Below are positions 4,694-43,131 of a DNA stretch of 64,000 nt, in pieces. Numbering within the stretch: the stretch's first letter is position 1; each line of letters begins with the position of its first letter. Source of the stretch: Desulfosporosinus acidiphilus SJ4. GTDB taxonomy: Bacteria > Bacillota > Desulfitobacteriia > Desulfitobacteriales > Desulfitobacteriaceae. A program made the translations under genes and the position numbers. The stretch spans positions 186,001 to 250,000 of the forward strand of contig NC_018068.1 of the NCBI RefSeq assembly GCF_000255115.2. Direction: 5' to 3'. Under the pieces are notes generated by a model. It saw only the letters and a list, made by a program, of their open reading frames with translations. It was not told the DNA's origin and made no database searches.

Positions 4694-4767
4694 TATATAA
4701 CTCGTGCTATTTGTCATAACTTTCTTTATCGGCCCCAAGGAACCTTTGTGGTATGGAGTGATTTTTG

Positions 4768-5283: not shown

Positions 5284-5494
5284 ATCCAGCAACCTAACCG
5301 TCCTTCGAAACATAATAGTGCCCTGCGGGTGCTTTTCATAAACTCTTTTATAGGACTCTAATCGCAGGGATTTTCGCTAAAGACCCATTTACCGAACTTC
5401 GCCAAAGGCTAAAAATGCGAAGTGCTCAGAGTTTATCAAGTGACGGGTATTTACGTAATACGAAACGCTATAATAAGCGAAGGAAACTTGGATT

Positions 5495-6265: not shown

Positions 6266-6357
6266 GGATTCTATATAACTCCGTAAAATGGGAGTTTAGC
6301 GAAGCAAAGATTTTCAAAGTGTTGGGTGTTAGAAGATATCGTCATTTGTCCTAGTGA

Positions 6358-6513
6358 CAAAGTGATGGGGATTATCCTCCGAATCCATCGCCTTGGGCAC
6401 CAGAGCAAAAGCAGGATTTTAGAAATCGTGCAAATGCAGTATATCATAAATTGATATCAGAATTAGGTAGTGATTTTGAAGTAATCAACGAAATAGATAG
6501 ATGTGTGCGGTGA
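6358..6513 (+). pseudogene. Remnant of a small unrecognised protein
   Basis: An open stretch reads QSDGDYPPNPSPWAPEQKQ... to EINEIDRCVR and a TGA at 6511-6513, with coding-like composition but no start codon and no ribosome site. It is probably the 3' end of a gene whose front is lost. It lies in a decayed zone just upstream of the broken AraC gene. Family not recognised. Confidence 0.35.
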
Positions 6514-6550
6514 TTTCCATTATTTTTATCAGGCAAAGGGGGAAGTAGTC

Positions 6551-7284
6551 TATTGGCTGTTTTCATCTTTCATAGGAATTTCTCTTTCAGAGTAAATCCG
6601 TCGCAGACGCCTTACAAAAGCGGCCTTTGATATTCAAACAAGCAATGCTAAAATCATTGATATTGCATTGAAATATGGTTATGACTCATCTGACGCTTTT
6701 ACAAGGGCATTTAAGAAATTACATAGTGTTACGCCCAATGCCGTCAGAGAGAATAGTGTGCAGTTAAAAGCCTTTCCTCGAATCTTCTTTCAAATTACAA
6801 TAAAAGGGGATGTTGAGAAATGGAGTATCGTATTGAGAAAATTGATTTTGTGGTGCGGTTTGTTGGAAAACGGCAAGGTGTGAAAACTTCTTGTGCATTC
6901 AAGGAGATTCCTGCCTTGTGGAGAAAATCCAATAAGGATGGCTTCAAGCAAGAATTGATTGACATGTCTTGGGTAAATCCGAAATGCAAGCTTGAGAGCC
7001 TTGTAGGTATTTGTGGCAAAGAGGCGGCAATCATGGATGAGAAATTTGATTACTTTATGGGAGTACGATATGACTCTGAAGTACCTGATGGTATGGAGGA
7101 ACTAATAATTTCACCATGCTTATATGCCGTATTCCCTAATGTTGTTGATGCTTGGAAAAGGCTATATTCAGAATGGCTCCCTGCATCAGGTTATGAACTT
7201 GCAGACCAACCTTGTATTGAGCATTTTCTCGGACCAGGACATAAAATCAAACATGAGTTGTGGGTGCCAATCGTTGAAAAATAA
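6551..7284 (+). pseudogene. AraC-family regulator with GyrI-like effector domain, broken
   Basis: Frame 6551-6592 reads YWLFSSFIGISLSE, then a TAA at 6593-6595 where relatives have Tyr, then IRRRRLTKAAF...KYGYDSSDAFTRAFKKLHSVTPN, the second helix-turn-helix of AraC proteins. After KGDVE the frame is lost. A -1 change in the A-run at 6818-6820 restores MEYRIEKIDFVVR, a GyrI/Rob-like ligand-binding domain, which stays open to 7284 (6820-7284 could still be made as a 154-residue free domain). The first helix-turn-helix is missing. At least two lesions indicate a true pseudogene. Confidence 0.8.
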
Positions 7285-7359
7285 ATTGTATATTAAGTAA
7301 CTTGCTTCGCAGAATTTTTCTTAATATAGAATTGTTGGTGATGTTAGGAGTGAACTAAA

Positions 7360-7569
7360 ATAACCAGGAAGGTTTACACGATTATATCTATCAGTTTGAT
7401 ATTGATTGCGACCATGTTTTTTATTAGGGCAACATATATGGAAAACCTTGAAAAGACTTCACGGATTTTAATTGGGTCTGGGTACGTCTTAATCTTATTT
7501 ATTACAAAGCTTTTCGAGGTACTTAATAAAATTCAAAGATTAATGGTCTTTATATTACTTACCTGCTAA
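7360..7569 (+). CDS. Possible 69-residue two-span membrane protein with an AUA in place of the start codon
   Basis: The frame ITRKVYTIISISLILIATMFF... has two hydrophobic segments (about residues 5-25 and 38-62) and ends in TAA at 7567-7569. An AGGAG site at 7346-7350 is correctly placed for the ATA at 7360, suggesting the ATG was lost by one substitution or that AUA is used. The first in-frame ATG would remove most of span 1. No family recognised. It may be a decayed gene, in keeping with this zone. Confidence 0.35.
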   Translation: MTRKVYTIISISLILIATMFFIRATYMENLEKTSRILIGSGYVLILFITKLFEVLNKIQRLMVFILLTC

Positions 7570-7735
7570 GAAATTTCTTGCGCAATTCTTCGTTCGATTA
7601 TGTGATATTAAGTCGGGTAATTCATTATGTAGAGATATTTGATCTGTTTTGTTGGAACGACTCTGTGAATAGCGATTTCACCTATCAAAGATAATCCAAT
7701 ATATAGGTCAAATCTGGATTTGAGAGGAAGATAAT

Positions 7736-8707
7736 ATGATTGAAATAGTGTTTAGCGATAGTGCTTGTGGAAGTCTCAAAGTGGCACAGCACTATGGCGA
7801 GGGGGAATATCGAGATGGGGGCATTGGTGTTATCGTTAGTCACGAGGATGGAAGCAAACCAACCAAAGAGGAAGTTGAAGCTGCCCGACGAAAAGCTAAG
7901 GAGAAGGCACGCTTAGCATGGGAGAGTGCTACCCCCTTGGGTGGAAATACAGCAGACATTTATGGATTCAACTTGATGCTAAGCGTTGGAGATATTTCGG
8001 AGAATCAGCCCGGTATCAAGCGGCAGCAGACTTTGGAACACTTATACAGCGTTTATCCGAATGACGTGGGTTATCAGGCAGCTCAGAAAATGTTTAAAAG
8101 GGTAAAAGAAGATCTGAAAACGGTTCAAGAACGCGCAGCGATGGGAGAATCCCTTCGAATCTGGTACAGCAATCACCCTGATGAAATGTGTGGACTCTAT
8201 TGGTTCATGGGGCAGTTGATTCACTGGAAGGTGCATGTTAAACAGGTTTCTATTGTCAAGCTCCCGGAATGGGAAGCTGACGAAAAGGGAAATATCGTGC
8301 AGAAAAGAGGTTGGGGTGAAGTTGCTCCCGGAGAATGGCATCGGTATATTGCCTTGCAAAAGCCGGTGCTGCCGATATTTGTACAAAGCTGTGCATCTCA
8401 TTGGCAAGGACTTCAAAGGGAGAACACACCTTTGCGGGCCACACTTAATGGACAGTTAGTCAGTGCACCGGAACCCCTCTATGATGACTTTATCTATCGT
8501 GAAATCGAAGCAGAAGGTGAGGAATTTCGGGAGGTAAAGGTTATCGGGCGAGTGATGAGTAAATATCAACTTGGAATTAGCGATTCCTGGATTGCACTCC
8601 GTATGGAAGAAATGATTCGTGAAGGAAAACTTGAGGTTACGTCTGTAGTTGCCGAAGATATGCCAGTCTATCATCGAGTCTTGAAAAAGTGTACCTACAG
8701 ATTATGA
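7736..8707 (+). CDS. DUF1835 / DUF3658 domain protein
   Basis: The 323-residue cytosolic protein starts MIEIVFSDSACGSLKVAQHYG, the typical opening of DUF1835 proteins. The C-terminal part (from about residue 235, with helix-turn-helix-like DSWIALRMEEMIREGKLEV) matches DUF3658. A GAGAGGAAG site precedes the ATG. The function of this family is not established. It is the first intact gene after the decayed zone. Confidence 0.75.
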   Translation: MIEIVFSDSACGSLKVAQHYGEGEYRDGGIGVIVSHEDGSKPTKEEVEAARRKAKEKARLAWESATPLGGNTADIYGFNLMLSVGDISENQPGIKRQQTLEHLYSVYPNDVGYQAAQKMFKRVKEDLKTVQERAAMGESLRIWYSNHPDEMCGLYWFMGQLIHWKVHVKQVSIVKLPEWEADEKGNIVQKRGWGEVAPGEWHRYIALQKPVLPIFVQSCASHWQGLQRENTPLRATLNGQLVSAPEPLYDDFIYREIEAEGEEFREVKVIGRVMSKYQLGISDSWIALRMEEMIREGKLEVTSVVAEDMPVYHRVLKKCTYRL

Positions 8708-8887
8708 GCGTAATGACATTTAAAAAACAATACTGGTTTGGCTAATAATTCGAAGTTCCAATAAACTTATTTAAAGATGTTTTTTGGTAATAAAAATAAA
8801 CTATAGTTAACATCGTTCCTTGTGTCTTAAGCTGTTTGTAGCTAGTTTAATAATTTATAAGCGGAAAAGTTAGTTATACTACTAAAT

Positions 8888-9979
8888 TCAATCGCATTTT
8901 GATGGCATTTGAGGTCCGATGAAAAGCTTCCCACTTAATACTCCTCTAACGGTATTACTAAAGGTATACACCCAAAGAAGGATTAAAAGGATGGTTAGGA
9001 ATTTAGAATAGCCAACTGTAAGAGGGGATATAAATATCCGTGCTATTTTTTGGCTTGCGATGGTATAGGAAGCTAAAGGAAAGATGAAAGCCCACCACCC
9101 CATATTAAAGGGAATTCCTCCATTTCTAATTTGATAAATACTGATAATCACGATAATGCCAACAATCCAGGTTCCGAATCCCCAGATAGCCATAGACATA
9201 AGATTTGAAAGTTCTGTTGATCCTAAGAACCCCATTGTATGGGCATTTTTCGCAATATCAATAATTGCACTTACGGCCAGTCCGATTGCACTGATGAAAA
9301 TACCGAAGGATGGGATTTTATCCCCTGGGGGTAGTGGATGATTGGCAAGTCGGACAAAAACTATAGCACTAATAAACATGAAAAGAAAAAAACCAATACC
9401 AAATAGGGCTGTATTGATGACTAGGAAGGATAAACCCCACATCGGTCGAATTTTAATCGTCAGTTCGAGTACCGGGTTCCCGATCAATAAAACAGCCATA
9501 TTGGCAATGGGTGCCATAATCCAAGAAAAGTTAATTACGTCTGGACTTGGACTTTCTTTAAGTCGTATAATCAAAAACGTTGAATAAAAGGTAAAAAAAC
9601 ACACACCAATGATTGAAATAATCCATAGGCCAAGAATAACATGATAAACTGTAGCTTGACTGAGATAATGACTCCATATAAGGTAAATATTAGTTCCTAA
9701 GATGGTTGTTGCCACTGGCATGGTCACGAAGAAATTGCCGGTGTGAAGGTGATTCAGATCGCGATAAGCATAATCAAAAAAACATATCCAACGAATAACC
9801 CAAGGGACTAAAACAACAAAATAGAGAAGGTCTGCAAGTATGGCAAAAAGTGTACCTAAAAGGTTTCCGGCAGGAAAAGAGTTCTGCCATTGAAAGAGAA
9901 TGTTTGCTAATCCGCCAGTGCCCATGATTACGGCAAACCATGCTGGGGCCAGATGCTTAATGAGATGTCTTTCTAGCAC
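8888..9979 (-). CDS. TDT-family (TehA/SLAC1-like) transporter
   Basis: A 363-residue membrane protein with about ten hydrophobic spans. The opening HLAPAWFAVIMGTGGLANILF is characteristic of the tellurite-resistance/dicarboxylate transporter (TDT) family, which includes malate permeases, sulfite exporters and TehA anion channels. The GTG start at 9979 has an AAGGAG site 9 nt upstream. It is monocistronic and convergent with the DUF1835 gene. The substrate cannot be chosen from sequence; sulfite or C4-dicarboxylate are family options. Confidence 0.85.
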   Translation of the reverse strand: MLERHLIKHLAPAWFAVIMGTGGLANILFQWQNSFPAGNLLGTLFAILADLLYFVVLVPWVIRWICFFDYAYRDLNHLHTGNFFVTMPVATTILGTNIYLIWSHYLSQATVYHVILGLWIISIIGVCFFTFYSTFLIIRLKESPSPDVINFSWIMAPIANMAVLLIGNPVLELTIKIRPMWGLSFLVINTALFGIGFFLFMFISAIVFVRLANHPLPPGDKIPSFGIFISAIGLAVSAIIDIAKNAHTMGFLGSTELSNLMSMAIWGFGTWIVGIIVIISIYQIRNGGIPFNMGWWAFIFPLASYTIASQKIARIFISPLTVGYSKFLTILLILLWVYTFSNTVRGVLSGKLFIGPQMPSKCD

Positions 9980-10181
9980 ATTAAAAACTCCTTATTTAGG
10001 ATTTGGGTTAGTTAATAAGTTTGCTGAAAATAGGATTACATGTTTAAGAGGAAGTATTTAAGATTAGAGTTTAACCCTCTAATCCTGCGGAAAGTCTATA
10101 TGACAACGAAGTTAAATGATTTCACGTTAGGCTTTTGTTGAGCAGATAATTTGTATTTAAGTAGGCAACCGGAGAATAAGC

Positions 10182-11705
10182 ATGAAGAACAGAACCTATA
10201 TCGCAATTGATTTAAAATCCTTCTACGCTTCGGTCGAATGTGTGGAACGAGGGCTTGATCCGCTGACCACCAACCTTGTTGTCGCTGACGCAAGCCGCAC
10301 CAAAAAAACCATCTGTCTCGCCGTCTCGCCCTCCCTCAAAGCATACGGCATTCCCGGTAGGGCGAGGCTGTTTGAAGTTGTACAGAAGGTCAAAGAAGCA
10401 AATGCAGCACGGCTGCGCAAAGTACCAGGACGAGCCTTTTCCGGCGTTTCCTGCAACGATATTGAATTGAAATCTTCACCGGGTCTCTCGCTGGACTACA
10501 TTGTTGCTCCACCGAGGATGGCGTATTATATAGAGTACAGCACGCAGATTTACAATATCTATTTGAAGTACATCGCGTCCGAAGATATTCATGTCTACTC
10601 CATTGACGAGGTATTCCTTGACGCCACCGATTATCTCAACACCTACAATCTTTCAGCCCGTGAGCTTGCCACGAAAATGATTCTGGATGTACTCAAAAAA
10701 ACTGGCATTACAGCAACGGCGGGAATTGGCACAAACCTGTATCTTTGCAAGATCGCTATGGATATTCAAGCAAAGCACATACCTGCAGATAACAACGGTA
10801 TGCGGATCGCCGAGCTGGACGAAATGAGCTACCGTCGCTCCCTGTGGTCGCATCGGCCTCTAACGGACTTTTGGCGCGTTGGAAAAGGATATGCCAACAA
10901 GCTGGAGGAAAAAGGTCTCTTTACAATGGGGGATATTGCAAGATGCTCTCTCGGTAAACCTACCGATTACTACAACGAGGATTTACTGTATAAGCTGTTC
11001 GGCATCAACGCTGAACTGCTGATCGACCATGCGTGGGGGTGGGAGCCATGCACAATTGCCGATATTAAAGCGTTTAAGCCAAGCACAAACAGTATTGGAT
11101 CGGGGCAGGTGCTGCACTATGCCTATACTTTTGACAAAGCGAAGCTGATCGTGCGGGAAATGACGGATCTGCTGGTTCTTGATCTGGTAGATAAAAGGCT
11201 TGTGAGCGACCAGCTTGTTTTGACGGTCGGATATGATATCGATAATCTAACAAATCCAGAGATAAAGAAATCATATCACGGGGCAATCACCACTGACCAC
11301 TACGGACGCGCCGTTCCGAAATCCGCGCATGGTTCGGTAAACCTTGGCAGACAGACCTCCTCTACAAAGCTAATCATGGATGCCGTCACAGATCTGTTTG
11401 AACGCATCGTTGATAAAAATCTTCTGATCAGAAGAGTCAACATCACTGCGAATCATGTCGTTGATGAGGCAACTGTTCAAAAGACGGGCGACGTTGAACA
11501 GCTTGATCTCTTTACGGATTTCGCGGCTGCGCAGGCGAAAAAAGGAGATGAAGAAGCTGAGCTTGCACGAGAAAAAAAGATGCAGCAAGCAATGCTTGAA
11601 ATAAAAAAGAAATACGGCAAGAATGCCATTCTAATGGGTATGAATCTGGAGGAAGGCGCTACCACTGTAGACCGGAACAGGCAGATTGGAGGGCACAAGG
11701 CATGA
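10182..11705 (+). CDS. UmuC/DinB-like Y-family DNA polymerase
   Basis: The 507-residue protein has the Y-family palm motifs: YIAIDLKSFYASVEC (first catalytic Asp) and YSIDEVFLD (catalytic Asp-Glu), then helix-hairpin-helix DNA-contact residues (FWRVGKGYANKLEEKG) and a little-finger domain. These enzymes copy past damaged bases. The gene overlaps the YolD-like gene by 4 nt (ATGA), the usual pairing in Firmicute UvrX/YolD-type loci on chromosomes, plasmids and prophages. I saw no clear LexA box upstream. Base composition is somewhat more GC-rich than the flanking genes, hinting at transfer. Confidence 0.9.
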   Translation: MKNRTYIAIDLKSFYASVECVERGLDPLTTNLVVADASRTKKTICLAVSPSLKAYGIPGRARLFEVVQKVKEANAARLRKVPGRAFSGVSCNDIELKSSPGLSLDYIVAPPRMAYYIEYSTQIYNIYLKYIASEDIHVYSIDEVFLDATDYLNTYNLSARELATKMILDVLKKTGITATAGIGTNLYLCKIAMDIQAKHIPADNNGMRIAELDEMSYRRSLWSHRPLTDFWRVGKGYANKLEEKGLFTMGDIARCSLGKPTDYYNEDLLYKLFGINAELLIDHAWGWEPCTIADIKAFKPSTNSIGSGQVLHYAYTFDKAKLIVREMTDLLVLDLVDKRLVSDQLVLTVGYDIDNLTNPEIKKSYHGAITTDHYGRAVPKSAHGSVNLGRQTSSTKLIMDAVTDLFERIVDKNLLIRRVNITANHVVDEATVQKTGDVEQLDLFTDFAAAQAKKGDEEAELAREKKMQQAMLEIKKKYGKNAILMGMNLEEGATTVDRNRQIGGHKA

Positions 11706-12130
11706 CGAGGACATATGACGACATCATTAATCTACCTCACCATGTCTCTACGACACACCCTCATATGGCTGCTATTGACCGGGCGGCTCAGTTTTCCCCT
11801 TTCGCCGCACTGACTGGCTATGATGCCGCCATCAAAGAAACCACAAGACTGACTGACGAGAGAGTAAAATTGGACGAATATATGAAGGACGCTTTGAGTG
11901 ATAGACTGCAAATCATAGCAGATCGGATTAAAGAGTATCCCGAAATCGCAATTACCTACTTTCAGCCGGATGCGAAGAAGAATGGCGGCACCTATGTTAC
12001 TGCTATCAGTACGGCTAAAAAGATAGACGAATATGAACGGATTGTCGTTATGACCGATGGCACAGCGATCCCCATTGATGAAATAATCAGCATAGATGGG
12101 CAAATATTCGAATCTATGGAGGTATATTGA
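11702..12130 (+). CDS. YolD-like protein
   Basis: The 142-residue protein has the DRAAQFSPFAALTGYDAAIKE block near residue 27, the hallmark of YolD-like proteins that accompany Y-family polymerases. Its start overlaps the polymerase stop (ATGA), so the two are translationally coupled. YolD-like proteins are proposed UmuD functional analogues; the mechanism is not proven. Convergent with the next gene, with only 32 nt between. Confidence 0.85.
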   Translation: MTRTYDDIINLPHHVSTTHPHMAAIDRAAQFSPFAALTGYDAAIKETTRLTDERVKLDEYMKDALSDRLQIIADRIKEYPEIAITYFQPDAKKNGGTYVTAISTAKKIDEYERIVVMTDGTAIPIDEIISIDGQIFESMEVY

Positions 12131-12162
12131 ACCGATAGCAAGAACGCTGGGGCTAGAAACAA

Positions 12163-13113
12163 CTAAACTTTTAATAATAGGATAATGATTGATATTAAGC
12201 TAAAGCATACACTTATTAAACTTATAAATGCTACTGTTTGTTTTTGGGTGAGACCAGAAGAAAGTAATCTGTGATGTATTTGAGTTGCATCGGCTTTATA
12301 AATAGATTCCCCACGAGAAAATCTTTTCAAAACAACTATAATATTATCAAAAATCGGTACTCCAAGTGCTAATACAGGAATAGATAATGATATCAGCGTT
12401 GCTTGCTTAAAAGCCCCATTTAGAGCAATTATAGACAAAATAAATCCTAAAAAATTTGCTCCTGAATCGCCCATAAAAATCCTAGCTGGATGTTTATTAT
12501 ATCTCAAAAATCCCAAAGACACCCCAACAATAAGTGCTGAAAGTAATGCAGAATCGTCTTGCCCTTTTGCTAGAGCGACTACAAATAAAGTTGAGCCAGC
12601 GATTGCAGATAATCTTCCAGCAAGTCCATCAATTCCGTCCGACCAATTTATGACAGTTGTAACGCCTACAATCCACATAATACTTAAAACAAATTGAATT
12701 ATGTACGGTAAAATTATATATTTGTGTGTTACTGGATTCGTAAAACCATAAAAGACGATTCCAGATGAAAAGACAATAATGGCAGAGATTATGTGAACTA
12801 ATAATCTGGGGAGTGCTGGAAATTCTTTGCCAAGGGTCTTATACCAGTCGTCAATAATACCAATTATAAGAATTAAAATAGAAGCAACAATTACAGAGAC
12901 AGATTGTTTATCAATTGGTCTTATAAAAGTGATATAACCACTAATAAAACCAAAAAACATACCTATACCGCCTAATAAAGGAATAGGGCGTTGATGCTTT
13001 TTTCTTTCGTTTGGCTTATCAACAAAATTCCACTTTATTGAGAGCTTTTCAAAAAAAGGTATAGTTAAATAAACAATTAAAAAAACAAAAGAAAAGGCAA
13101 ATAAAAAATTCAT
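12163..13113 (-). CDS. WecA/TagO-type undecaprenyl-phosphate glycosyl-phosphate transferase
   Basis: The 316-residue polytopic protein carries the MraY/WecA/TagO motifs: DDWYK (about residue 88), INWSDGIDGLAG (about 155-166), FMGDSGANFLGF and the HHRL motif of the cytosolic loop. Family enzymes transfer a sugar-1-phosphate (usually GlcNAc-1-P) to undecaprenyl phosphate, the first step of teichoic acid or surface polysaccharide synthesis. A GGAGG site lies somewhat far (about 13 nt) from the ATG. It is monocistronic; the exact sugar is not deducible. Confidence 0.88.
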   Translation of the reverse strand: MNFLFAFSFVFLIVYLTIPFFEKLSIKWNFVDKPNERKKHQRPIPLLGGIGMFFGFISGYITFIRPIDKQSVSVIVASILILIIGIIDDWYKTLGKEFPALPRLLVHIISAIIVFSSGIVFYGFTNPVTHKYIILPYIIQFVLSIMWIVGVTTVINWSDGIDGLAGRLSAIAGSTLFVVALAKGQDDSALLSALIVGVSLGFLRYNKHPARIFMGDSGANFLGFILSIIALNGAFKQATLISLSIPVLALGVPIFDNIIVVLKRFSRGESIYKADATQIHHRLLSSGLTQKQTVAFISLISVCFSLISIIILLLKV

Positions 13114-32244: not shown

Positions 32245-32407
32245 TAATCTTCAAAACGGGGTTTTACAAGTTAATAGTATTTAAGTAGTGGTATTGAGAA
32301 AATTGATTAAATCTATAGTTGGTTCTTTGAAAACATAGGGTTTCGGGACCATAGCTGCACTACTTTAAAGAGTGCTGATAAATAGATATACAGAAAGGGG
32401 ATCTACC

Positions 32408-33184
32408 GTGACAGAAAAATATGTGCAAACTCTTGAACGTTCGTTGGATGTTTTGGAGGTTCTTGCTCATGCAGAAGAACCCTTAGGTGTGACGGAAATA
32501 GGAAATCGTATTCAATTGCATAAAAGCACCGTTCATCGAATTTTGCAGACCCTGTGTTATCGAGGTTACGTCGAGAGAACAAAAGGGAACGAACATTATC
32601 AATTAGGAATTAAAATAGTGGAACTGGGGATTCGCTTCTTCAATGATCTTGAAATTCGCAAAGTTGCGGGACCTGTTCTTAATGATTTAGCAAAATTATT
32701 GAATGAGGTTGTGCATCTAGTGCTGCCTGATGACGGTGAGATTGTATATATTGATAAGGCTGAAAGTTCCCATGTCGTGAGTATGCATTCTAAAGTGGGG
32801 CGAAGAGCTCCTATGCATTGTACTGCTGTGGGAAAGGCTATTCTTTCAACCCTGCCTGAGGAGGAAGTTCGGCATATTTTAGAGGTCAAAGGTATGACTC
32901 GTTATACGCCGAATACCATCGTTGACCCGGAGGTTTTGTTTAAGGAGCTTAAAGGTATCAGAGAAAGCAAAATTTCTGTGGAGAAAGAAGAAAATGAAAT
33001 CGGAATCATTTGTTTGGGAACACCTGTTTTTGATTATTCGGGTCGTGCCATTGGCGCTATCAGCGTCTCCGGTCCTGCCAGCAGGATTCAGGAAAAGGGT
33101 ATCGAGCGGATTGGCCAGGAAATGAAAAAAGCCGGGGAAGAAGTTTCTGCAAAATTAGGATTTAACTATTTCCAAAAACTATAA
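32408..33184 (+). CDS. IclR-family regulator of the glycolate / malyl-CoA cluster
   Basis: The 258-residue protein has an N-terminal winged helix (about 10-70: SLDVLEVLAHAEEPLGVTEIGNRIQLHKSTVHRILQTLC) and the IclR effector domain (HSKVGRRAPMHCTAVGKAILS; later GIICLGTPVFDYSGRAIGAISVSGP). GTG at 32408 was chosen because AAAGGGG lies 7-8 nt upstream. It precedes the dehydrogenase and CoA-ester genes and probably senses glycolate, glyoxylate or a related acid, as other IclR regulators of glyoxylate metabolism do; that ligand is inferred. Confidence 0.92.
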   Translation: MTEKYVQTLERSLDVLEVLAHAEEPLGVTEIGNRIQLHKSTVHRILQTLCYRGYVERTKGNEHYQLGIKIVELGIRFFNDLEIRKVAGPVLNDLAKLLNEVVHLVLPDDGEIVYIDKAESSHVVSMHSKVGRRAPMHCTAVGKAILSTLPEEEVRHILEVKGMTRYTPNTIVDPEVLFKELKGIRESKISVEKEENEIGIICLGTPVFDYSGRAIGAISVSGPASRIQEKGIERIGQEMKKAGEEVSAKLGFNYFQKL

Positions 33185-33232: not shown

Positions 33233-33291
33233 TTGACGATTTTACACCTCAGGTAGATAATAGAGTCATAAAATTTTGAAACGTGGTTTCA
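33233..33291 (+). promoter_or_regulatory. Promoter and IclR-type operator of the dehydrogenase operon
   Basis: TTGACG (33233-33238), a 17-nt spacer and GATAAT (33256-33261) form a good promoter. TGAAAC-GTG-GTTTCA (33277-33291) is a perfect 6-3-6 palindrome 15 nt after the -10, placed to block transcription, with a second half site (GTTTCAA) near 33304. This also shows that the coding start lies further down (33408). Confidence 0.75.
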
Positions 33292-33407
33292 CTTGTAAAA
33301 ACATGTTTCAACAATTGAAATATCCTTGTAACCTGGCAACGGGTGTTGTAAAGGTCAATCTATCCGGCCTGTGGTCTGATAATCTGGCAGAGAAGGGGGA
33401 AATATCA

Positions 33408-34658
33408 GTGGGGGTTTTGACAGAAGTATACGAGATGTTAAACACATGTAACAAGTGTGGTGGATGCCATACAGCTTGTAAGACCTACAAATTGACTGGG
33501 GCAGAGGAAATGTCTACACGTGGAAGAATTCAGCTCATTAAAGCTGTCGCCGATGGAAAGTTAGAACCTAATGAAGAGTACGAAGATGCAATTATGAGCT
33601 GTCTGTTGTGTGGAGAATGTGCAGTTACCTGCCCAAATGGTGTACATGGCAATGAACTTGTCATGGCTGCGCGGCGAGATCTAAAACTCAGAAAAGGAAT
33701 TAAGCCATTTGCTAAATCGTTTGCTTTAAACACCTTAGCGAGTTCGAAGAGGTTGGGTATGGGATTCAGGCTTTTCGGAGGAATGGGCAAAAGTGTCTTG
33801 AATAAAATTGATGGAATGGACTATTTTCGTGGTATTGATATTCGGAACTTCCCTACAGCCAAAAAACCATTTTTGGAACAGGTCCCGGAGAAGATTACGG
33901 TGCAGCATCCGAAGCATAAAGTCGGGTTTTATGTTGGCTGTTTTCTCAATTACTCCTTAGATCAAACTGCTCATTCTGTTGTTAAAGTCTTAACCAAGAA
34001 TGACTGTGACGTTATTATTCCGAAAGATCAAGTGTGCTGCGGTCTTCCGCAATATTGCTATGGCGACTTCGAAACTGCAAAACGTAACGCCCGCAAAACG
34101 ATAGATACCTTTTTAGATAAATATAAAGATGTGGAAGTTGTTCTCTCCGCTTGTGCGTCCTGTGCCTCGATGCTTAAACATGATTATTTAAAACTCTTTG
34201 CTGATGAGCCTTCATACCTTCCAAAAGTTGAACGATTTTGTGAAAAAGTGGTTGAATTCTCGGAATACATGGCAAAGATTGGCGTTGATCAGAGCAAACT
34301 TCATAATTCAAGCCCGCTGACAGTTACCTATCATGATCCTTGTCACATGGTTCGGGGTCTAAAGGTAACGAAGCAGCCCCGGCAATTATTGCAAATGGTT
34401 CCTAGGGTTGAATATAAGGAGATGTTTGAAGCCAACCGCTGCTGCGGGGCAGCCGGTTTAGTGCAGGCCTTTTATCATGAGGTATCAACCGATATCACGG
34501 ATCAGAAGACACAAAACATCAAGGATACCAATGCCGATTTAGTGGCTACAAGCTGTCCGGCTTGTATGTTGAGACTCCAGGGCGGCATCAACAAAGCAGG
34601 TCAAAAACAAAAGGTTGTGCATGTTGCTGATTTAATGGCTAACGCCTATGAAGATTAG
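33408..34658 (+). CDS. Glycolate/lactate dehydrogenase Fe-S subunit (GlcF-like)
   Basis: The 416-residue protein has two N-terminal [4Fe-4S] motifs (CNKCGGCHTACK and CLLCGECAVTCPNG) and two CCG-type cysteine domains (VGCFLNYS...CCGLP; CCGAAGLV...SCPACMLRL). It matches GlcF of glycolate oxidase and related lactate dehydrogenases, which pass electrons from the FAD subunits to a quinone or ferredoxin-type acceptor. The GTG start has a GGGGGA site; an upstream ATG at 33276 falls in the operator. First of three dehydrogenase genes. Confidence 0.9.
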   Translation: MGVLTEVYEMLNTCNKCGGCHTACKTYKLTGAEEMSTRGRIQLIKAVADGKLEPNEEYEDAIMSCLLCGECAVTCPNGVHGNELVMAARRDLKLRKGIKPFAKSFALNTLASSKRLGMGFRLFGGMGKSVLNKIDGMDYFRGIDIRNFPTAKKPFLEQVPEKITVQHPKHKVGFYVGCFLNYSLDQTAHSVVKVLTKNDCDVIIPKDQVCCGLPQYCYGDFETAKRNARKTIDTFLDKYKDVEVVLSACASCASMLKHDYLKLFADEPSYLPKVERFCEKVVEFSEYMAKIGVDQSKLHNSSPLTVTYHDPCHMVRGLKVTKQPRQLLQMVPRVEYKEMFEANRCCGAAGLVQAFYHEVSTDITDQKTQNIKDTNADLVATSCPACMLRLQGGINKAGQKQKVVHVADLMANAYED

Positions 34659-34796
34659 GAACATTTGTTAAAACTTTAATTTTGTATCTGGAATTATCAT
34701 TACAACTTATTATGGTCTGGCGGAAAAATCGAAAATTTCCCTTTGCGGAACATGCTGACCGCAAGTTCTAGTAAACGAATGGAAGGGCGGGTAGTC

Positions 34797-36101
34797 ATGA
34801 GTAACGTCAATATCAGTAAGTTAAAGGGGATTGTCGGTGATGAGCATGTCATCGATTCTCCTTCTGAAATGGCTAAATATCTAAAAGGTCAAGGTAAACC
34901 TGCAGTTGTAGTCTTACCCGGAAACACTTCAGAAGTTTCGAACATTGTTAAATTGGCAAATGACCAGAATGTAAAATTAACAGTGGGCGGGGCAGTTGTC
35001 GATACCCAGGGGCTTTCCGGCGGCATCGCCATGGTTATGTCCCGGATGAACCGGATTTTAGAGATGGATATGCAAAATCTTGTTGCCGTCGTGGAACCAG
35101 GACTTCTTCATAAGGATTTTCTTCTTAAAGTCGCTGAAACGGGATTAAACTTCCCTCCCGAACCCTATGAACTGGAAACCAGCTCCATTGGCGGCTGCTT
35201 TGCCATTGGAGATTCAGATTCTAAGTCCTTTGAATACGGTCCCACTCGGACATTTCTTTTAGGATTTGAAATGGTTCTCCCAACAGGGGAAATTATGGAC
35301 ATAGGGAATAAATGTATTAAGAATGTTTCCGGTTTGGATTTTATTCACTTTGCAGTGGGAAGCCAAGGAACATTTGGGATCTTTACCAAACTTCTGGTGA
35401 AACTTTTACCTGCACCGGAAGCTAGGAGAGCAGTGATTGGAACTTTTGCGTCCATGCATAAGGCGAATGAAACCTTTAATACTTTGATTAAGCGGAATGT
35501 TCTGCCGACTCGAATGAATCTCATCAATGGATCCCTTGCGAATATTGCCAAACCCGGAACAGAAGGGCAGCTCGTGATTATCGATTTACAGGGATTTAAA
35601 GAATCGGGTAAAAACATTGCTCATGAAATTGCGGCTGTTCTTACCTTGGGCGGAGGTACTGATGTCAAGATCATTGAAGATGCGGCCGAATATGATCAAG
35701 TGATCAACGGTTGGCTTAAAGTGCGCGCCGATCTTAATTCCAAACCGGAGCAAACCGTGGAGTTTACGGTTGGCCCGATGAAAATGCCTCAAGCCCTGGC
35801 TCAGCTCGAAGCACTGACGGGAGACCTGGGAGCTTATCCCGGCGTCATTGTCGAAGGACTTCTCGGATATGTTTGTTTGGCTCTGCCTGAGGGAACCGAT
35901 AAACTTGCTCTAGCCAGAAGTTTGAATAAACTGGCGATGTCCCTGGGCGGGAACGTCAAGGGCCTCTTGGGTCATAAGCTTAAAGCTGAAGTTTATAATG
36001 ATGCGGAAATGTGGAAGCAAACTACAAGTTTGCTCCGAGAACTGCGTCAACAATTTGACCCCAAAGGGATTCTCAGCCCTGGGGTAAGTCTAGAAGCTTA
36101 G
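34797..36101 (+). CDS. FAD-binding dehydrogenase subunit (GlcE-like)
   Basis: The 434-residue protein has the FAD_binding_4 (PCMH) fold: VVLPGNTSEVSNIVKLAN, VEPGLLHKDF, SSIGGCFAIGDSDS and GSQGTFGIFTKLLVKL, then a C-terminal substrate domain ending QQFDPKGILSPG. It is more divergent than the next gene (the usual N-terminal GGT loop reads TVGGAVVDTQG) and fits the GlcE role beside GlcD. At 434 residues it is longer than the roughly 350-residue GlcE of enterobacteria. It ends 18 nt before the next gene. Confidence 0.85.
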   Translation: MSNVNISKLKGIVGDEHVIDSPSEMAKYLKGQGKPAVVVLPGNTSEVSNIVKLANDQNVKLTVGGAVVDTQGLSGGIAMVMSRMNRILEMDMQNLVAVVEPGLLHKDFLLKVAETGLNFPPEPYELETSSIGGCFAIGDSDSKSFEYGPTRTFLLGFEMVLPTGEIMDIGNKCIKNVSGLDFIHFAVGSQGTFGIFTKLLVKLLPAPEARRAVIGTFASMHKANETFNTLIKRNVLPTRMNLINGSLANIAKPGTEGQLVIIDLQGFKESGKNIAHEIAAVLTLGGGTDVKIIEDAAEYDQVINGWLKVRADLNSKPEQTVEFTVGPMKMPQALAQLEALTGDLGAYPGVIVEGLLGYVCLALPEGTDKLALARSLNKLAMSLGGNVKGLLGHKLKAEVYNDAEMWKQTTSLLRELRQQFDPKGILSPGVSLEA

Positions 36102-36119: not shown

Positions 36120-37496
36120 ATGTTAAGCCAAACGGTTGTTAAGCGATTGAAGGAAATTGTCGGAGAGAAAAACGTCGTTACAGACAAAGTTGGCCTGTTG
36201 ACCTATGGATATGACGGTACGTTATTATCTGGTGAAGCGTTAGGTGTTGTTTCACCAAAGACAACGGAACAAGTCGTTGAAATTGTTAAACTGATGAACG
36301 AGCACAATATTAAACTTGTTCCCCGGGGTGCCGGTACGAATGAGAGTGGCGGAACCATTCCTTCTCAAGATTCAGTGGTAATCAGCTTTTCTAAAATGAC
36401 TAAAATTCATGAGATAGATACAGAAAACTTTGTCGCAGTCGTTGAGCCTGGAGTCATCAATTTTGACCTTCAAGTTGAGCTGGAAAAGAAAAAGTTCTAT
36501 TTTCCTCCCGACCCGTCTTCCTATAAGGCCTCAACCATAGGAGGTAATGTCGGTGAATGTTCCGGCGGGCCGAAATGCTTTAAATATGGGGTTACTCGCG
36601 ATTATATCCTGGGCCTGGAGGTTGTTCTCCCAAATGGACAAGTCATTCAAACGGGGGGGCGCAATTTCCAAAGTGAACCGGGTTATGATTTGACTCGAAT
36701 TATTGTAGGCGCGGAAGGAACTCTCGGCTTAGTTACCAAAGTTTTTGTCCGCATTATACCGATGCCCAGAGCAAAGAAAACTATGTTGGCTATCTACGAT
36801 AAAGTAGAAGATGCATCCCGAACGGTTGCGGATATCGTTGCCGCCGGCATTATTCCGACAACTCTGGAATTGATGGATAATTTGCTGATTAATACCACTG
36901 AAGATTTTACCCATGCCGGTCTTCCACGTGATGCCGGAGCTGTTCTCATTATTGAGGTTGACGGGTATCCGGAAGATATGGATGCACAAGTCAAAACCAT
37001 TGGTGAAATAGCCAGCAAAATTGCCAAAGAATTTAAAGTTGCTCAATCGGCCATTGAAGTGGATCAGGTCTGGACTTCAAGGCGCAGTGCTTTCGGATCA
37101 GTGGCTCGCGTTCGTCCCTCTTATGGTGTTAACGATATTACGGTTCCGAGGAGCAATTTCCCCAAAGCCATCGAAGGAGTTCTTAAAGTAGCCAAGGATT
37201 TCGGTGTAACCATCGGAGTCGTGGCCCATGCCGGTGACGGGAATCTTCACCCGTTGATTCTTTTCGATCAAAGGAATAAAGAGGAAGTTGAAACCGTCCA
37301 CGCCGCGGAGCAAGCCCTCTGTATGATGGCTCTTGATCTGGATGGAACAATAAGCGGTGAGCACGGAATCGGGCTCGTCAAGAAGAAATATCTTGATTCG
37401 GAGTTTAGTCCTATTGCTATGGAGGCTTTCAGAAAGGTTAAGAGAAGCTTCGACCCAAGCAATCGCTTTAACCCGGGAAAAGTCATCGAACTATAA
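36120..37496 (+). CDS. glcD: Glycolate oxidase / D-lactate dehydrogenase FAD subunit (GlcD-like)
   Basis: The 458-residue flavoprotein has PRGAGTNESGG (FAD pyrophosphate loop), VVEPGVINFDLQ, GGNVGECSGGPKCFKYGVTRDY, GAEGTLGLVTKVFV and the C-terminal HAGDGNLHPLILFD plus SGEHGIGLVKKKYL motifs of GlcD. It oxidises a 2-hydroxy acid, glycolate being favoured by the downstream malyl-CoA genes; D-lactate is the alternative. AAGGAGG precedes the ATG. Third gene of the dehydrogenase operon. Confidence 0.92.
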   Translation: MLSQTVVKRLKEIVGEKNVVTDKVGLLTYGYDGTLLSGEALGVVSPKTTEQVVEIVKLMNEHNIKLVPRGAGTNESGGTIPSQDSVVISFSKMTKIHEIDTENFVAVVEPGVINFDLQVELEKKKFYFPPDPSSYKASTIGGNVGECSGGPKCFKYGVTRDYILGLEVVLPNGQVIQTGGRNFQSEPGYDLTRIIVGAEGTLGLVTKVFVRIIPMPRAKKTMLAIYDKVEDASRTVADIVAAGIIPTTLELMDNLLINTTEDFTHAGLPRDAGAVLIIEVDGYPEDMDAQVKTIGEIASKIAKEFKVAQSAIEVDQVWTSRRSAFGSVARVRPSYGVNDITVPRSNFPKAIEGVLKVAKDFGVTIGVVAHAGDGNLHPLILFDQRNKEEVETVHAAEQALCMMALDLDGTISGEHGIGLVKKKYLDSEFSPIAMEAFRKVKRSFDPSNRFNPGKVIEL

Positions 37497-37626: not shown

Positions 37627-37649
37627 AATAAGGTTTGAGGAGGCTTCAC

Positions 37650-37997
37650 GTGGAGACAAGAGTATTTTCACTCGAAAAGTTGGCCCGGTTTGATGCGAAC
37701 GTTCCCCAGAAAGTGTTGGTTTACCAGTCGGATAAAACCCTGGGTGCTATGTGGTGTCTGGAACCCGGTCAGGAAGTGTTCCTCCATCAGCATCCCAACG
37801 CGGACGATGTCTGGATTTGTCTTGAAGGAGAGTCCGGCCTTTATTTTGCCGGTGATGGGCAAGAGGTTAACATAAAAAAAGGTATGGCAATTCTCGCCAA
37901 AGCAGGAGAAACTCACGGAATGCGCAATACAGGTACAAATCGCTTTGTATTTATTGGTATCGCTGGGCCGGTACCCGTGGAAACCGTTAAGTTATAA
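37650..37997 (+). CDS. Cupin-domain protein
   Basis: The 115-residue single-cupin protein has HQHPNADDVWICLEGES (first cupin motif with the metal-binding His and Glu positions) and GETHGMRNTG (second motif). GTG at 37650 was chosen for the TGAGGAGG site upstream. Small cupins of this kind bind a metal and may sense or isomerise small acids. Its place between the dehydrogenase and CoA-ligase genes suggests a role in the same pathway, but the function is unknown. Confidence 0.8.
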   Translation: METRVFSLEKLARFDANVPQKVLVYQSDKTLGAMWCLEPGQEVFLHQHPNADDVWICLEGESGLYFAGDGQEVNIKKGMAILAKAGETHGMRNTGTNRFVFIGIAGPVPVETVKL

Positions 37998-38310: not shown

Positions 38311-39588
38311 ATGGCAAAATTTCTTGAATACCAAGGAAAAGAATGGCTCAGAAAAGCCGGACTTCCGGTACCCTTAGGAAGAGTAGCTTCTAATCCTGAA
38401 GAAGCACGCCAGATTGCTGAGGAAATCGGCAAACCTGTAGCAGTAAAGGGTCAACTCCAAGCGGGTGGACGCGGTAAAGCCGGAATCGTTAAATTAGTGA
38501 ATACACCAGAGGAGGCAGCGGCCGCCGCCGCAGAAATTCTGGCTAAAACGGTTAAAGGCATGCCAATTCATCAGGTTCTCATAGAAGAAAAATTAAATAT
38601 TAAAAAAGAGTTCTATTGTTCGTTCGTTATAAATGGGGCAAGAGAAGCCCGTTCGCCCATGTTGATGTTCAGCACCGAAGGGGGCATGGACATCGAAAGT
38701 GTTCCCGAAGAGTTGTTATATAAAGTAAATGTAGACCCAATTAATGGGTTACAGCCCTATGACGCTGTTGATCTTTGCGCTCGAGCCGGGATCCCGGCTC
38801 AGGACCTTAGTAAGTTTTCCAGTTTCCTGACGAAACTTTCTCAAACCTATAAAAAGTATGACTGTCAGACCTTGGAGATCAACCCCTTCATTATGACTGG
38901 CGAGGGAAATCTGGTTTGTGCTGACTGCAAAATGGAGATCGACAACAGTTCAGTAGGACGTCATCCTGAGTTTGGTATTGCCATTGCTCGTGATTTGCCG
39001 GGTGCACCGACTGAATTAGATCTCATCGGCTGGAGCATCGAGGAAACAGATGCTCGGGGCACAGGATTTCTGATGAATATGGGTTATGATGAAGTAAGTC
39101 CCGGTTACATCGGCTATCACCCCATTGGCGGAGGTTCCGCTATGATGGGACTGGATGCATTAAACCAAGTTGGTCTTAAGCCGGCAAACTATGCAGATAC
39201 GAGCGGTAATCCGGTGGGTTCGAAAATCTACCGGGTTGCAAAATGTGTGCTGTCCCAGCCAAACATTGACGGTTACTTGCTTGGCGGATTTATGATGGCC
39301 AACCAAGAACAGTGGCATCACGCCCACGCGATTGTTAAGGCACTGAGAGAAATACTGCCCACTAAAAAGCCTGGCTTGCCTTGTGTCTTATTGCTCTGCG
39401 GCAATAGGGAAGATGAATCGCTCGAAATTCTCAGAACAGGTCTCGCAGATCTGATGACCCCGGATGGTCCGGGTAAGAGAATCGAGATTTATGGCAAAGA
39501 GCATGTCACAGATACGAAGTTTATCGGCGAAAGACTCTTGGCCCTCAGTAAAGAATATCGAGCTGAGAAAGAAGCTCAAGGAAAGTAG
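38311..39588 (+). CDS. Acyl-CoA ligase beta subunit (SucC-like; probable malate-CoA ligase)
   Basis: The 425-residue ATP-grasp protein opens MAKFLEYQGKEWLRKAGLPVPLGRVA and has KGQLQAGGRGKAGIVKL and LEINPFIMTGEGNLVCADCKMEIDN, as in succinyl-CoA synthetase beta chains. The C-terminal CoA-ligase half departs from SucC: where SucC has IFGGIVRCD it reads LLGGFMMANQEQWHHA. The protein is about 35 residues longer than typical SucC. With the lyase and malic enzyme downstream it fits a malate/malyl-CoA ligase making ATP from malyl-CoA; succinate cannot be excluded. Confidence 0.82.
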   Translation: MAKFLEYQGKEWLRKAGLPVPLGRVASNPEEARQIAEEIGKPVAVKGQLQAGGRGKAGIVKLVNTPEEAAAAAAEILAKTVKGMPIHQVLIEEKLNIKKEFYCSFVINGAREARSPMLMFSTEGGMDIESVPEELLYKVNVDPINGLQPYDAVDLCARAGIPAQDLSKFSSFLTKLSQTYKKYDCQTLEINPFIMTGEGNLVCADCKMEIDNSSVGRHPEFGIAIARDLPGAPTELDLIGWSIEETDARGTGFLMNMGYDEVSPGYIGYHPIGGGSAMMGLDALNQVGLKPANYADTSGNPVGSKIYRVAKCVLSQPNIDGYLLGGFMMANQEQWHHAHAIVKALREILPTKKPGLPCVLLLCGNREDESLEILRTGLADLMTPDGPGKRIEIYGKEHVTDTKFIGERLLALSKEYRAEKEAQGK

Positions 39589-39598
39589 GGGAAAGCTA

Positions 39599-39886
39599 AT
39601 GCTGGAATTCGCAGAGAAAAGTATTACAGTCAAAATTGATACCAGCAAGTGTGATACATGCGAAACAAAAGCATGTGCTGACGCGTGCAAAAAGTATGCC
39701 AGGGGGTTGCTTGGCATCAATGATCAGGGAAAGGCATCCGTTGAACATCGCTCTGAAGAAGAGTGTTTGCGTTTGGGTACGGAGTGTTTGTCCTGTGAGT
39801 TTGCTTGCAGGACTCGGGGCAATAACGCCATTACTATTGAAATTCCTGTTAAAGGTTTGGATGAGTACCTTAAGAAACGTCAATAA
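39599..39886 (+). CDS. Small eight-cysteine Fe-S-type protein between the ligase subunits
   Basis: The 95-residue protein has two cysteine groups, CDTCETKACADAC (about residues 18-30) and C-x6-CLSCEFAC (about 57-71), eight cysteines in all, resembling a divergent two-cluster ferredoxin that lacks the usual CxxCxxCxxxCP spacing. GGGGAAAG precedes the ATG, 10 nt after the beta-subunit stop. Its position between ligase beta and alpha genes suggests it binds the ligase or couples it to redox state. I do not recognise a named family. Confidence 0.75.
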   Translation: MLEFAEKSITVKIDTSKCDTCETKACADACKKYARGLLGINDQGKASVEHRSEEECLRLGTECLSCEFACRTRGNNAITIEIPVKGLDEYLKKRQ

Positions 39887-39958: not shown

Positions 39959-40855
39959 ATGGGAATTTTAATCAATAAGCAGACCAGAGTCATTGTTCAA
40001 GGGATTACCGGCCGTGAAGGCTCTGTCCGCACGAAGTATATGAAGGAATATGGAACCAATGTCATTGGCGGAACAAGTCCAGGAAAAGCCGGCGAACTAG
40101 TTCATGAAATACCTGTCTTCAATACAGTAAAAGAGATTGTTCGCGAACAAGGCGAGATTGACTTCAGTGTTATTTTTGTACCGGGGCGTGCTCTGAAGAC
40201 CGCAGTCTATGAAGCGGCTGATGCAGGGGTTAAAAATATAATTCCCTGTGTCGAAGGAACCCCAATTCATGATATTATGGAAATGATAGCCTATGCTGAG
40301 TCCAAAGGATCCAGAGTCTTGGGTCCTGGTTCCATTGGAATTATTACTCCCGGTGAGGCCGTTGTTGGCTGGCTGGGAGGGAATAAGGAATGGGCTAATA
40401 AATTCTTTAAAAAGGGGAACATTGGTGTGTTCTCCAGAAGCGGAGGACAGTCCGGGACGATCCCTTGGCTGCTGCGCGAAGGAGGATTTGGAGTTAGTAC
40501 CGTCATTCATACAGGTACTGAACCCGTACTTGGAACCTCTATGGCCGATTTGCTTCCTATGTTTGAAGCGGACCCGGAAACAGCCGGTGTAGCTGTATAT
40601 GCGGAAATCGGCGGATCCCAAGAAGAAGAGTGCGCCGAGGTTATCGCAGCCGGTAAATTCACAAAGCCTTTTGTTGTCTATGTGGCAGGTGCTTGGGCTC
40701 CGGCAGGTCAGAGATTCTCTCACGCTTCGAACATTGTGGAGCGCGGCCGTGGTTCAGCTAAGAGCAAAATGGAAGCTATCACGAAGGCAGGGGGATTTGT
40801 CGCTGAAACTCCCACAGACATTCCAATTATCTTGAAAGAAAAAGTCAAGGCTTAA
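39959..40855 (+). CDS. Acyl-CoA ligase alpha subunit (SucD-like; probable malate-CoA ligase)
   Basis: The 298-residue protein has the CoA-binding Rossmann start ([24 protein letters not shown]), [27 protein letters not shown] and, at about residue 254, the phospho-histidine segment RFSHASN in the place of SucD MGHAGA. So the His needed for phosphoryl transfer is kept. The ATG at 39959 follows GAGGGA. It pairs with the beta subunit upstream. Confidence 0.87.
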
Positions 40856-40929: not shown

Positions 40930-41823
40930 ATGGCTATTATGAGATCAATTCTGTATATTCCTGGTAACAACCCGAAAATGGTTGCCAAGGCTCCTGAGTT
41001 TGATGCTGATATCATTACTCTCGATCTTGAAGATTCCGTTCCACCGGCAGAAAAAGAAGCTGCCCGCAAATTAGTGTCTGAAAACCTCAAATACGCAGGC
41101 TCCAACGGAGCACAAGTATTTGTTCGTATTAACAACTGGGAAACAGAATTAACCAACGATGACCTTGAAGCTGTTGTACATGAGGGACTTGCCGGGGTAA
41201 CCTTAGCTAAAACGGGCTGTGCTGCAGACGTACAGCGTCTCGACTGGAAGCTGGAAGAACTTGAGCGCCGCCGTGGATTAGAAGTAGGCAGCGTAAAAAT
41301 TTCCATGCTTTTGGAAACTGCTAAAGGGATTATCCATGCCGCAGAATGCTGCTTAGCAAGTAAACGTAACGTCAATGCTATCTTCGGCGCAGTCGATTAT
41401 TGCCGTGATATGCGTGTAAAATTAACCAACGAATCTGTTGAGCAACAATATGCCAGAGCTCATATGGCAGTTGCCTGCCGTGCTGCTGGAATTGTAGCAA
41501 TTGATGCGCCGTTTGTCGATTTCAAAAACATCGAAGCGTTTGAGAAAAATGTTGCTGAAGGCCGTCAAATGGGTTATGAAGGCCGTATGATTATTCATCC
41601 GGGACAAATTGAGCCTTCCAACCGCATGTATTCTCCAGATCCGGCTGACGTGGAATGGGCGCGCGGCGTTGTAAAAGTCTTCGAAGAAGAAGGAATTGCT
41701 AAAGGTAAAGCCTCCGTATCCTACAATAACAAAATGGTTGATACCCCGGTTTACCTCAATGCTAAAGATATCTTAGCTGCCCAGGCAGAAATCGACGCTA
41801 AAAACGCATCAAAAAAAGCCTAA
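40930..41823 (+). CDS. CitE / malyl-CoA lyase family enzyme
   Basis: The 297-residue TIM-barrel protein of the HpcH/HpaI-CitE family has RSILYIPGNNPKM, DIITLDLEDSVPPAEKEAAR (metal-binding Glu/Asp), FVRINNW (CoA-contact Arg), ISMLLETAKGI and GRMIIHPGQIEPSN. It would cleave or form malyl-CoA (acetyl-CoA + glyoxylate). A lone citrate lyase beta chain is unlikely since no CitD/CitF genes are nearby. It is the key link between glycolate oxidation and the CoA ligase. GGGGGTAG precedes the ATG. Confidence 0.87.
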   Translation: MAIMRSILYIPGNNPKMVAKAPEFDADIITLDLEDSVPPAEKEAARKLVSENLKYAGSNGAQVFVRINNWETELTNDDLEAVVHEGLAGVTLAKTGCAADVQRLDWKLEELERRRGLEVGSVKISMLLETAKGIIHAAECCLASKRNVNAIFGAVDYCRDMRVKLTNESVEQQYARAHMAVACRAAGIVAIDAPFVDFKNIEAFEKNVAEGRQMGYEGRMIIHPGQIEPSNRMYSPDPADVEWARGVVKVFEEEGIAKGKASVSYNNKMVDTPVYLNAKDILAAQAEIDAKNASKKA

Positions 41824-41901: not shown

Positions 41902-43131
41902 ATGGGCCTTCGTGAAGATGCTCTTGCTCTGCATAAAGACAATAAAGGCAAAATTGCCGTTGTAAGTAAAGTCCCCGTTCGCAATGGAGATGACTTAAGT
42001 CTTGCATATTCCCCGGGAGTTGCCGAACCATGTCTGGAGATCGCCAAAGATCCGGCAGTGGTTAACGTTTATACAAACCGCGAAAATTTAACAGCGGTTG
42101 TATCAACCGGCTCCGCAGTTTTAGGACTAGGAAACATTGGGGCTCGTGCTGCCATGCCCGTTATGGAAGGAAAGGGAATTCTCTTTAAGACCTTTGGTAA
42201 TGTAGATGCTTTCCCTATTTGCTTAGATACTCAAGACAGTGACAAAGTCGTCCAAACCGTAAAGCTTCTTGAGCCGACCTTCGGTTCCATTAACTTGGAA
42301 GACATTAAAGCACCTGAGTGCTTCTACATTGAAGAAAAGCTTAAGGAAATTTACGACGGACCGATTTTCCACGATGATCAACACGGTACCGCAGTTGTTA
42401 CCATGGCAGGTTTGGTTAATGCTCTGAAAGTTGTTAAAAAAGAGCTGAAAGATGTAAAGATTGTCGTTAACGGTGCCGGAGCTGCCGGTATGGCCATCGT
42501 TAAACTCTTAATGAGCATGGGACTTCAAAAAGTTATCATGCTCGATACCAAGGGTACAATCTATGAAGGTCGTCCCGAAGGTATGAATAAATACAAAGAT
42601 GAAATCGCCGCTAAAACAAACCGTGAATTACTCAAGGGTAATTTAGCGGATGCCTTAAAAGGTGCCGATGTTTTTGTCGGCGTATCAGGGGCTAATCTTG
42701 TTACTAAAGAAATGGTTAAATCCATGGCACCCAATCCCATCGTTTTTGCCCAAGCAAATCCTGTTCCTGAAATATGGCCTGCCGAAGCTAAAGAAGCTGG
42801 GGCTGCCGTCGTGGGAACCGGCCGTTCGGATTACCCGAACCAAGTCAATAACGTCTTAGCCTTCCCTGGAATTTTCCGTGGTGCTATCGATGCCGGCGCC
42901 AAAGTGATCAATGAAGAAATGAAAGTTGCTGCAGCTTATGCTATTGCTAACATAGTCAGTGCTGAAGAACTTAACGCTGATTACGTAATACCAAAAGCCT
43001 TTGATCTGCGTGTAGGACCTGCAGTTGCTGCTGCAGTTGCCAAAGCAGCTATGGATACCGGGGTTGCAACCCATAAAGTTGATCCCGAGCAAGTCGCTGC
43101 CAACCTGCGCAAATATTACGAGAGCAAATAA
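41902..43131 (+). CDS. NAD(P)-dependent malic enzyme
   Basis: The 409-residue malic enzyme has SLAYSPGVAEPCLEI, GNIGARAAMPVMEGKG, FPICLDTQDSD, FHDDQHGTAVVT (metal and catalytic residues) and the Rossmann loop GAGAAGMAIVKLL. This is the short bacterial type (about 400 residues, no phosphotransacetylase domain). It turns malate into pyruvate and CO2 with reduction of NAD(P). Next to malyl-CoA genes, it completes the route from glyoxylate to pyruvate. Confidence 0.93.
   Translation: MGLREDALALHKDNKGKIAVVSKVPVRNGDDLSLAYSPGVAEPCLEIAKDPAVVNVYTNRENLTAVVSTGSAVLGLGNIGARAAMPVMEGKGILFKTFGNVDAFPICLDTQDSDKVVQTVKLLEPTFGSINLEDIKAPECFYIEEKLKEIYDGPIFHDDQHGTAVVTMAGLVNALKVVKKELKDVKIVVNGAGAAGMAIVKLLMSMGLQKVIMLDTKGTIYEGRPEGMNKYKDEIAAKTNRELLKGNLADALKGADVFVGVSGANLVTKEMVKSMAPNPIVFAQANPVPEIWPAEAKEAGAAVVGTGRSDYPNQVNNVLAFPGIFRGAIDAGAKVINEEMKVAAAYAIANIVSAEELNADYVIPKAFDLRVGPAVAAAVAKAAMDTGVATHKVDPEQVAANLRKYYESK

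Follow-up and report, generated by a model that had tools for sequence, protein, structure and literature searches.

To our knowledge, the succinyl-CoA synthetase (SCS) family represents the textbook two-subunit enzyme without a metal cluster. Its ligase reaction transfers phosphate and CoA, and no electrons. In SucCD the beta subunit is an ATP-grasp protein, and the alpha subunit is the CoA-binding, phosphohistidine subunit with the catalytic His motif. The malate–CoA ligase of methylotrophs (malate thiokinase, MtkAB) is encoded with a malyl-CoA lyase-type gene alongside. Small ferredoxins that serve as dedicated subunits of larger enzymes are represented by FixX and EtfX, which belong to the FixABCX and EtfABCX complexes. 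In archaea, the D subunit of RNA polymerase carries a ferredoxin-like domain, and that enzyme does no redox chemistry.

The window analyzed here is a 64,000-nt stretch of the Desulfosporosinus acidiphilus SJ4 genome, in which a small gene, here termed fdX, lies between the two subunit genes of a CoA ligase. The features of the locus are, in order:

33276..34658, + strand: glcF-like Fe–S/CCG protein (PF02754, PF13183)
34743..36101, + strand: FAD-linked glycolate dehydrogenase subunit, GlcE/GlcD-like (PF01565)
36120..37496, + strand: GlcD-like FAD-linked glycolate dehydrogenase (TIGR00387, 495 bits)
37635..37997, + strand: cupin-domain protein (PF07883)
38311..39588, + strand: beta subunit (ATP-grasp) of an ADP-forming acyl-CoA ligase, probably malate–CoA ligase (PF08442, 6e-51)
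39587..39592, + strand: Shine-Dalgarno-like AGGGGA for fdX, overlapping the beta stop codon (from the sequence)
39599..39886, + strand: FdX, 95-aa ferredoxin-like protein (ATG ORF; conserved Cys 18, 21, 26 and 30, and 63, 66 and 70)
39959..40855, + strand: alpha subunit (CoA-binding, phosphohistidine) of the same ligase (PF02629, PF00549)
40930..41823, + strand: HpcH/HpaI (CitE-like) lyase, probably malyl-CoA lyase (PF03328, 5e-47)
41902..43131, + strand: malic enzyme (PF00390/PF03949)

The ligase gene cluster and its third gene

The gene order glcF-glcE-glcD-cupin-beta-FdX-alpha-lyase-malic enzyme fits a malyl-CoA route of glycolate and glyoxylate breakdown. In such a route, glycolate would be oxidized to glyoxylate, which would condense with acetyl-CoA to malyl-CoA; this would be converted to malate with formation of ATP, and malate to pyruvate and CO2. 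Work cited in PMC8092247 suggested a malyl-CoA route for Syntrophobotulus glycolicus and Moorella HUC22-1. An IclR-type regulator (window positions 32372–33184) is located directly upstream of glcF and might control the entire run.

The first-pass annotation took the neighbors of fdX for CoA-ligase subunits, and the domain searches agree. PF08442 (ATP-grasp_2) in beta and PF02629 and PF00549 (CoA_binding/Ligase_CoA) in alpha all score above gathering cut-offs, so features of the ADP-forming SCS superfamily are present. Alpha keeps the active-site His motif: its RFSHASN lines up with GHAG in three paralogues from the same genome. In the NCBIfam models for succinate–CoA ligase, unlike SucCD, both subunits fall below the cut-offs (beta, 242 bits against 370; alpha, 268 against 336). 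The pair resembles MtkAB in its presumed reaction and in its lyase neighbor, but beta reaches only 170.7 against a cut-off of 604 in the NCBIfam malate–CoA ligase beta model.

The 95-residue ORF is a genuine conserved gene, beyond chance. Its ATG is located 10 nt past the beta stop (39588), with the AGGGGA box in front, and 72 nt separate the gene from the alpha ATG (39959); the tight spacing noted at first thus holds toward beta and not toward alpha. Homologues share 56–93% identity with FdX, the most distant members about 31–35%, and the nearest named relative is that of Desulfosporosinus sp. PR (92%). Six homologues gave finite estimates, with dN of 0.04–0.17 and dN/dS of about 0.04–0.09; the low dN combined with synonymous sites near saturation indicates strong purifying selection on the protein. 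The genome has one good copy of fdX. No Rfam elements were found in the region, and promoter and terminator matches there do not exceed the chance level.

Linkage and genomic context

FdX occurs in 46 of 82 Desulfitobacteriia genomes, in 11 of 22 genomes of the class of G419 and G093, which probably includes Moorella, and in genome G189, three classes in total; no further FdX turned up when 398 genomes from all over the phylum were searched with a profile. A scan of all species recovered only close relatives, its coverage past Bacillota being thin, and no plasmid or PHROG relatives were found. The order beta-FdX-alpha, on one strand, is present in 59 of 59 distinct loci (60 rows were listed, with one locus, L067 and L122, counted twice). 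The beta–FdX gap is usually 9–10 nt; the larger gaps listed mostly resemble partial beta matches or broken ORFs. In one Moorella-type genome, beta (L179, G093:C1:311000-327000, about 6486–7475) is interrupted by a single in-frame TAG that reduces the ORF to 329 aa, which could be a sequencing error, a pseudogene or read-through.

The position is also kept in two distant loci, one with 37%, 35% and 47% identity in beta, FdX and alpha (L067/L122), and the other with 40%, 31% and 49% (L071/L121). Conversely, neither FdX nor any Cys-rich ORF lies between the genes of 52 other SCS-type beta/alpha pairs across Bacillota (gaps −35 to 79 nt), which bears out the earlier statement that ordinary SCS has no third subunit gene. 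These 52 include the three other pairs of the D. acidiphilus genome, all directly adjoining. A 53rd locus instead has one long ORF. In L164 (G218:C30:12500-18500), an SCS-type beta has an open frame of 844 aa; a separate alpha was not found, and this is perhaps a beta–alpha fusion.

Loss of FdX coincides with loss of its ligase. None of the 35 FdX-negative genomes of the same classes has an intact FdX-type beta, only paralogues of 33–40% identity and a fragment in G027. The latter was considered as a beta without FdX and rejected, as the gene meets a 10-kb N run at residue 106, an assembly gap. Searches of the sampled Bacillota for free-standing FdX homologues without the ligase, the outcome that would speak against a tie, found none. 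The FdX-bearing betas form one clade (100/96, 100% of bootstrap trees), neighbored by a non-FdX clade represented by L074. Strict order, co-loss and this single clade support a dedicated partner of the ligase.

A free ferredoxin that carries electrons of the pathway (GlcDEF, malic enzyme or hydrogenase) and shares no more than a transcript with the ligase would be the main rival to a subunit. The ferredoxin-like domain and the glcF-E-D genes in the same run in Desulfosporosinus are consistent with such a carrier, and operon position and co-inheritance would also be possible for one encoded with the ligase. It is weakened because dehydrogenase genes are absent from most loci. The glc genes adjoin the ligase as a set only in Desulfosporosinus, and FdX is kept without an adjacent glcDEF set in Syntrophobotulus-, Dehalobacter-, Desulfitobacterium- and Moorella-type loci, an observation that counts against the electron delivery from glycolate dehydrogenase suggested initially. 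The Syntrophobotulus-type genome G042, for example, has beta-FdX-alpha-lyase-malic enzyme, and two Desulfosporosinus genomes (G014 and G008) retain only beta-FdX-alpha at the locus, with the lyase elsewhere.

The divergent members have other enzymes alongside. The FdX ligase of L121 (G189, 2122–6552) is accompanied by a citryl-CoA lyase and a fumarase-type hydro-lyase, and that of L122 (G419, 2238–8752) by an HMG-CoA-lyase-like enzyme, a LeuCD-type hydro-lyase and a PrpF-like isomerase; judged from these neighbors, both ligases are probably for other hydroxy acids. Adjacency of glc only in Desulfosporosinus, together with these citryl-CoA and HMG-CoA-type lyases beside distant members, indicates that FdX tracks the ligase. 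The constant unit across loci is beta-FdX-alpha. We therefore consider the free carrier unlikely, while taking it more seriously than any other rival.

The lyases of G008 (C38:44562-45452, L207) and G014 (C2:46952-47842, L208) are 98% identical to that of the window, whereas the betas are only 87% identical; the lyase may have been transferred or exchanged recently.

In Desulfitobacterium hafniense DCB-2, the five consecutive accessions ACL21108–21112 (malic enzyme, citryl-CoA lyase beta, SCS alpha, a hypothetical protein and SCS beta) belong to a set of 19 proteins whose levels rose on pyruvate alone (PMC9888536). The hypothetical protein ACL21111 increased 11/5/9/9/5-fold, close to alpha (13/6/11/10/7) and beta (15/5/11/9/7) (PMC9888536 Table 1), and is not discussed further in the main text of that study. 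We infer from the gene order, rather than from its own sequence, that ACL21111 is FdX. A DUF224/FAD-oxidase pair was up-regulated together with the ligase cluster (PMC9888536), a point in favor of a free carrier. Our search of the open-access literature found no report that FdX binds the ligase, contains metal or affects activity.

In Dehalobacter, the pair p393 and p395 was given as succinate:CoA ligase, and the gene between them was not mentioned (PMC4751268). The Dehalobacter-type locus L181 (G037:C1:1194000-1212000, 7453–12666) has the order beta-FdX-alpha-lyase-malic enzyme, neighbors that suggest malyl-CoA chemistry, and the published label is likely a mis-annotation. If so, this gene set could give glyoxylate, a candidate source of glycine and serine, whose origin in Dehalobacter was left open (PMC4751268).

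Fold and cysteine pattern of FdX

By profile comparison, FdX is a ferredoxin-like domain that belongs to no named family. The window protein has 4Fe–4S domain matches in Pfam and NCBIfam that are all sub-threshold, the Pfam Fer4 models included (below Pfam gathering cut-offs), and Fer4_7/Fer4_6 matches are found across the members. The FdX profile matches that of FixX with a probability of 97.6% (63 columns, CxxC-x4-C-x3-C spaced identically) and that of simple ferredoxins with 97.2% (37 columns). Among the Fe–S proteins that it matched in the PDB was EtfX (chain 7koe_D, E 0.014, positions 5–79); phmmer with the single FdX sequence gave no PDB match. Structure prediction was uninformative. The AlphaFold2 model of FdX alone is weak (pLDDT 69.5, pTM 0.44), with no Foldseek match in the PDB at E < 4.6, and an FdX–alpha chain modelled for docking, read through with stop codons as residues, was too low in quality for use (pLDDT 48.6).

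FdX is like FixX and EtfX in size, in motif I (CxxC-x4-C-x3-C) and in the C-x2-C-x3-C end of motif II, but it lacks the first Cys of their C-x2-C-x2-C-x3-C motif II as well as their C-terminal YPRGGFG..YRYG segment. FixX proteins adjoin FixC; FdX adjoins no FixC, and the enzyme that would be its partner does no redox chemistry. In our tree, FdX groups apart from FixX (99/98). An origin of FdX as a FixX offshoot was considered and is not shown by this short-alignment tree, which places generic ferredoxins, with weak support, within the side of FdX. Most other profile matches, L072 among them, were FixX adjoining FixC and were set aside, as were the small ferredoxins of G197, G228 and G278 (L068–L070), ordinary 2[4Fe–4S] ferredoxins without ligase genes. 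Classical 2[4Fe–4S] ferredoxins have two CxxCxxCxxxCP motifs and eight ligands, whereas FdX has x4 in motif I and seven conserved Cys. The likeness to the archaeal RNA polymerase D subunit would lie in a ferredoxin fold as a structural or regulatory part of a non-redox enzyme; there, the enzyme is unrelated and the domain lies inside a subunit.

The window protein has eight Cys (18, 21, 26, 30, 56, 63, 66 and 70), as first described, but in the family only seven are invariant (59 of 59 homologues). Cys56 occurs in two of the 59, the position being mostly V, I or T otherwise. Of the two Cys groups proposed, CxxC-x4-C-x3-C is present in all 59, and C-x6-CxxC-x3-C, which begins with Cys56, is thus a trait of the window sequence rather than of the family. 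Position 60, the slot of the usual first Cys of motif II, is Gly in 57 of 59; the two most distant members have Cys there.

By the standard pattern of ferredoxin ligands, Cys18, 21, 26 and 70 would hold one [4Fe–4S] cluster. The usual fourth ligand position of the other site being Gly60 in 57 of 59, Cys30, 63 and 66 would form a three-Cys site for a [3Fe–4S] or open-site [4Fe–4S] cluster; the missing ligand also speaks against a free electron carrier.

A few Cys of the ligase are conserved only in the seven-Cys clade, namely beta C206, C358 and C363 (C185 nearly so), and those in the alpha motifs IIPCVEG and EEEC. The ligases of the two distant eight-Cys members lack them. This single phylogenetic contrast is compatible with a three-Cys cluster located where FdX would meet the ligase, its open site completed by a ligase Cys, the CoA thiol or the hydroxy-acid substrate, such that the ligase would be directly redox-gated (or iron-gated). 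We put this forward tentatively, as a mechanism with a rather small chance of being correct.

The first-pass annotation allowed for either an Fe–S or a zinc subunit. Seven invariant Cys could bind zinc, and the beta-FdX-alpha linkage would be the same for a subunit with structural zinc (or another non-Fe–S metal) or a ligase assembly chaperone as for an Fe–S third subunit. The Cys spacing and the profile neighbors are those of [4Fe–4S] families, which favors the Fe–S option and makes zinc less likely, and the hosts are anaerobes, for which an Fe–S subunit poses no problem. We regard the zinc or chaperone alternative as very unlikely.

A putative third subunit

Least likely, and highly improbable in our view, is a passenger role, in which an old ferredoxin-type gene would have stayed fixed in the operon through common descent and have no ligase-tied function: the homologues come mostly from Desulfitobacteriia and Moorella types, so gene order could partly reflect shared ancestry, but the strong purifying selection, the unchanged location in two ligases with just 37–40% identity in beta, the co-loss with the ligase and the regulated protein in D. 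hafniense all argue against it.

On balance, we think that one subclade of ADP-forming acyl-CoA ligases probably has FdX as a dedicated ferredoxin-like third subunit, or as an obligate partner, with an Fe–S role that is structural or redox-gating. Being always located between beta and alpha and lost with the ligase, it has probably been overlooked as a third subunit; its absence from the 52 other pairs, the single clade and the co-regulated D. hafniense protein lend further support. The ligase of the window would be a malate–CoA (malyl-CoA) ligase, making ATP as glyoxylate and acetyl-CoA are converted to malate. The least certain part concerns the task of the clusters in an FdX subunit. Because no electrons move in the ligase reaction, they might be structural, or a redox, iron or O2 switch deciding when this ATP-forming enzyme is active, rather than electron carriers in catalysis.

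A third subunit of this kind would add iron to an enzyme that is not thought to need it. If FdX is tied to this ligase clade, substrate-level ATP formation in glycolate- and glyoxylate-degrading anaerobes would be built with Fe–S chemistry, and perhaps controlled by it.
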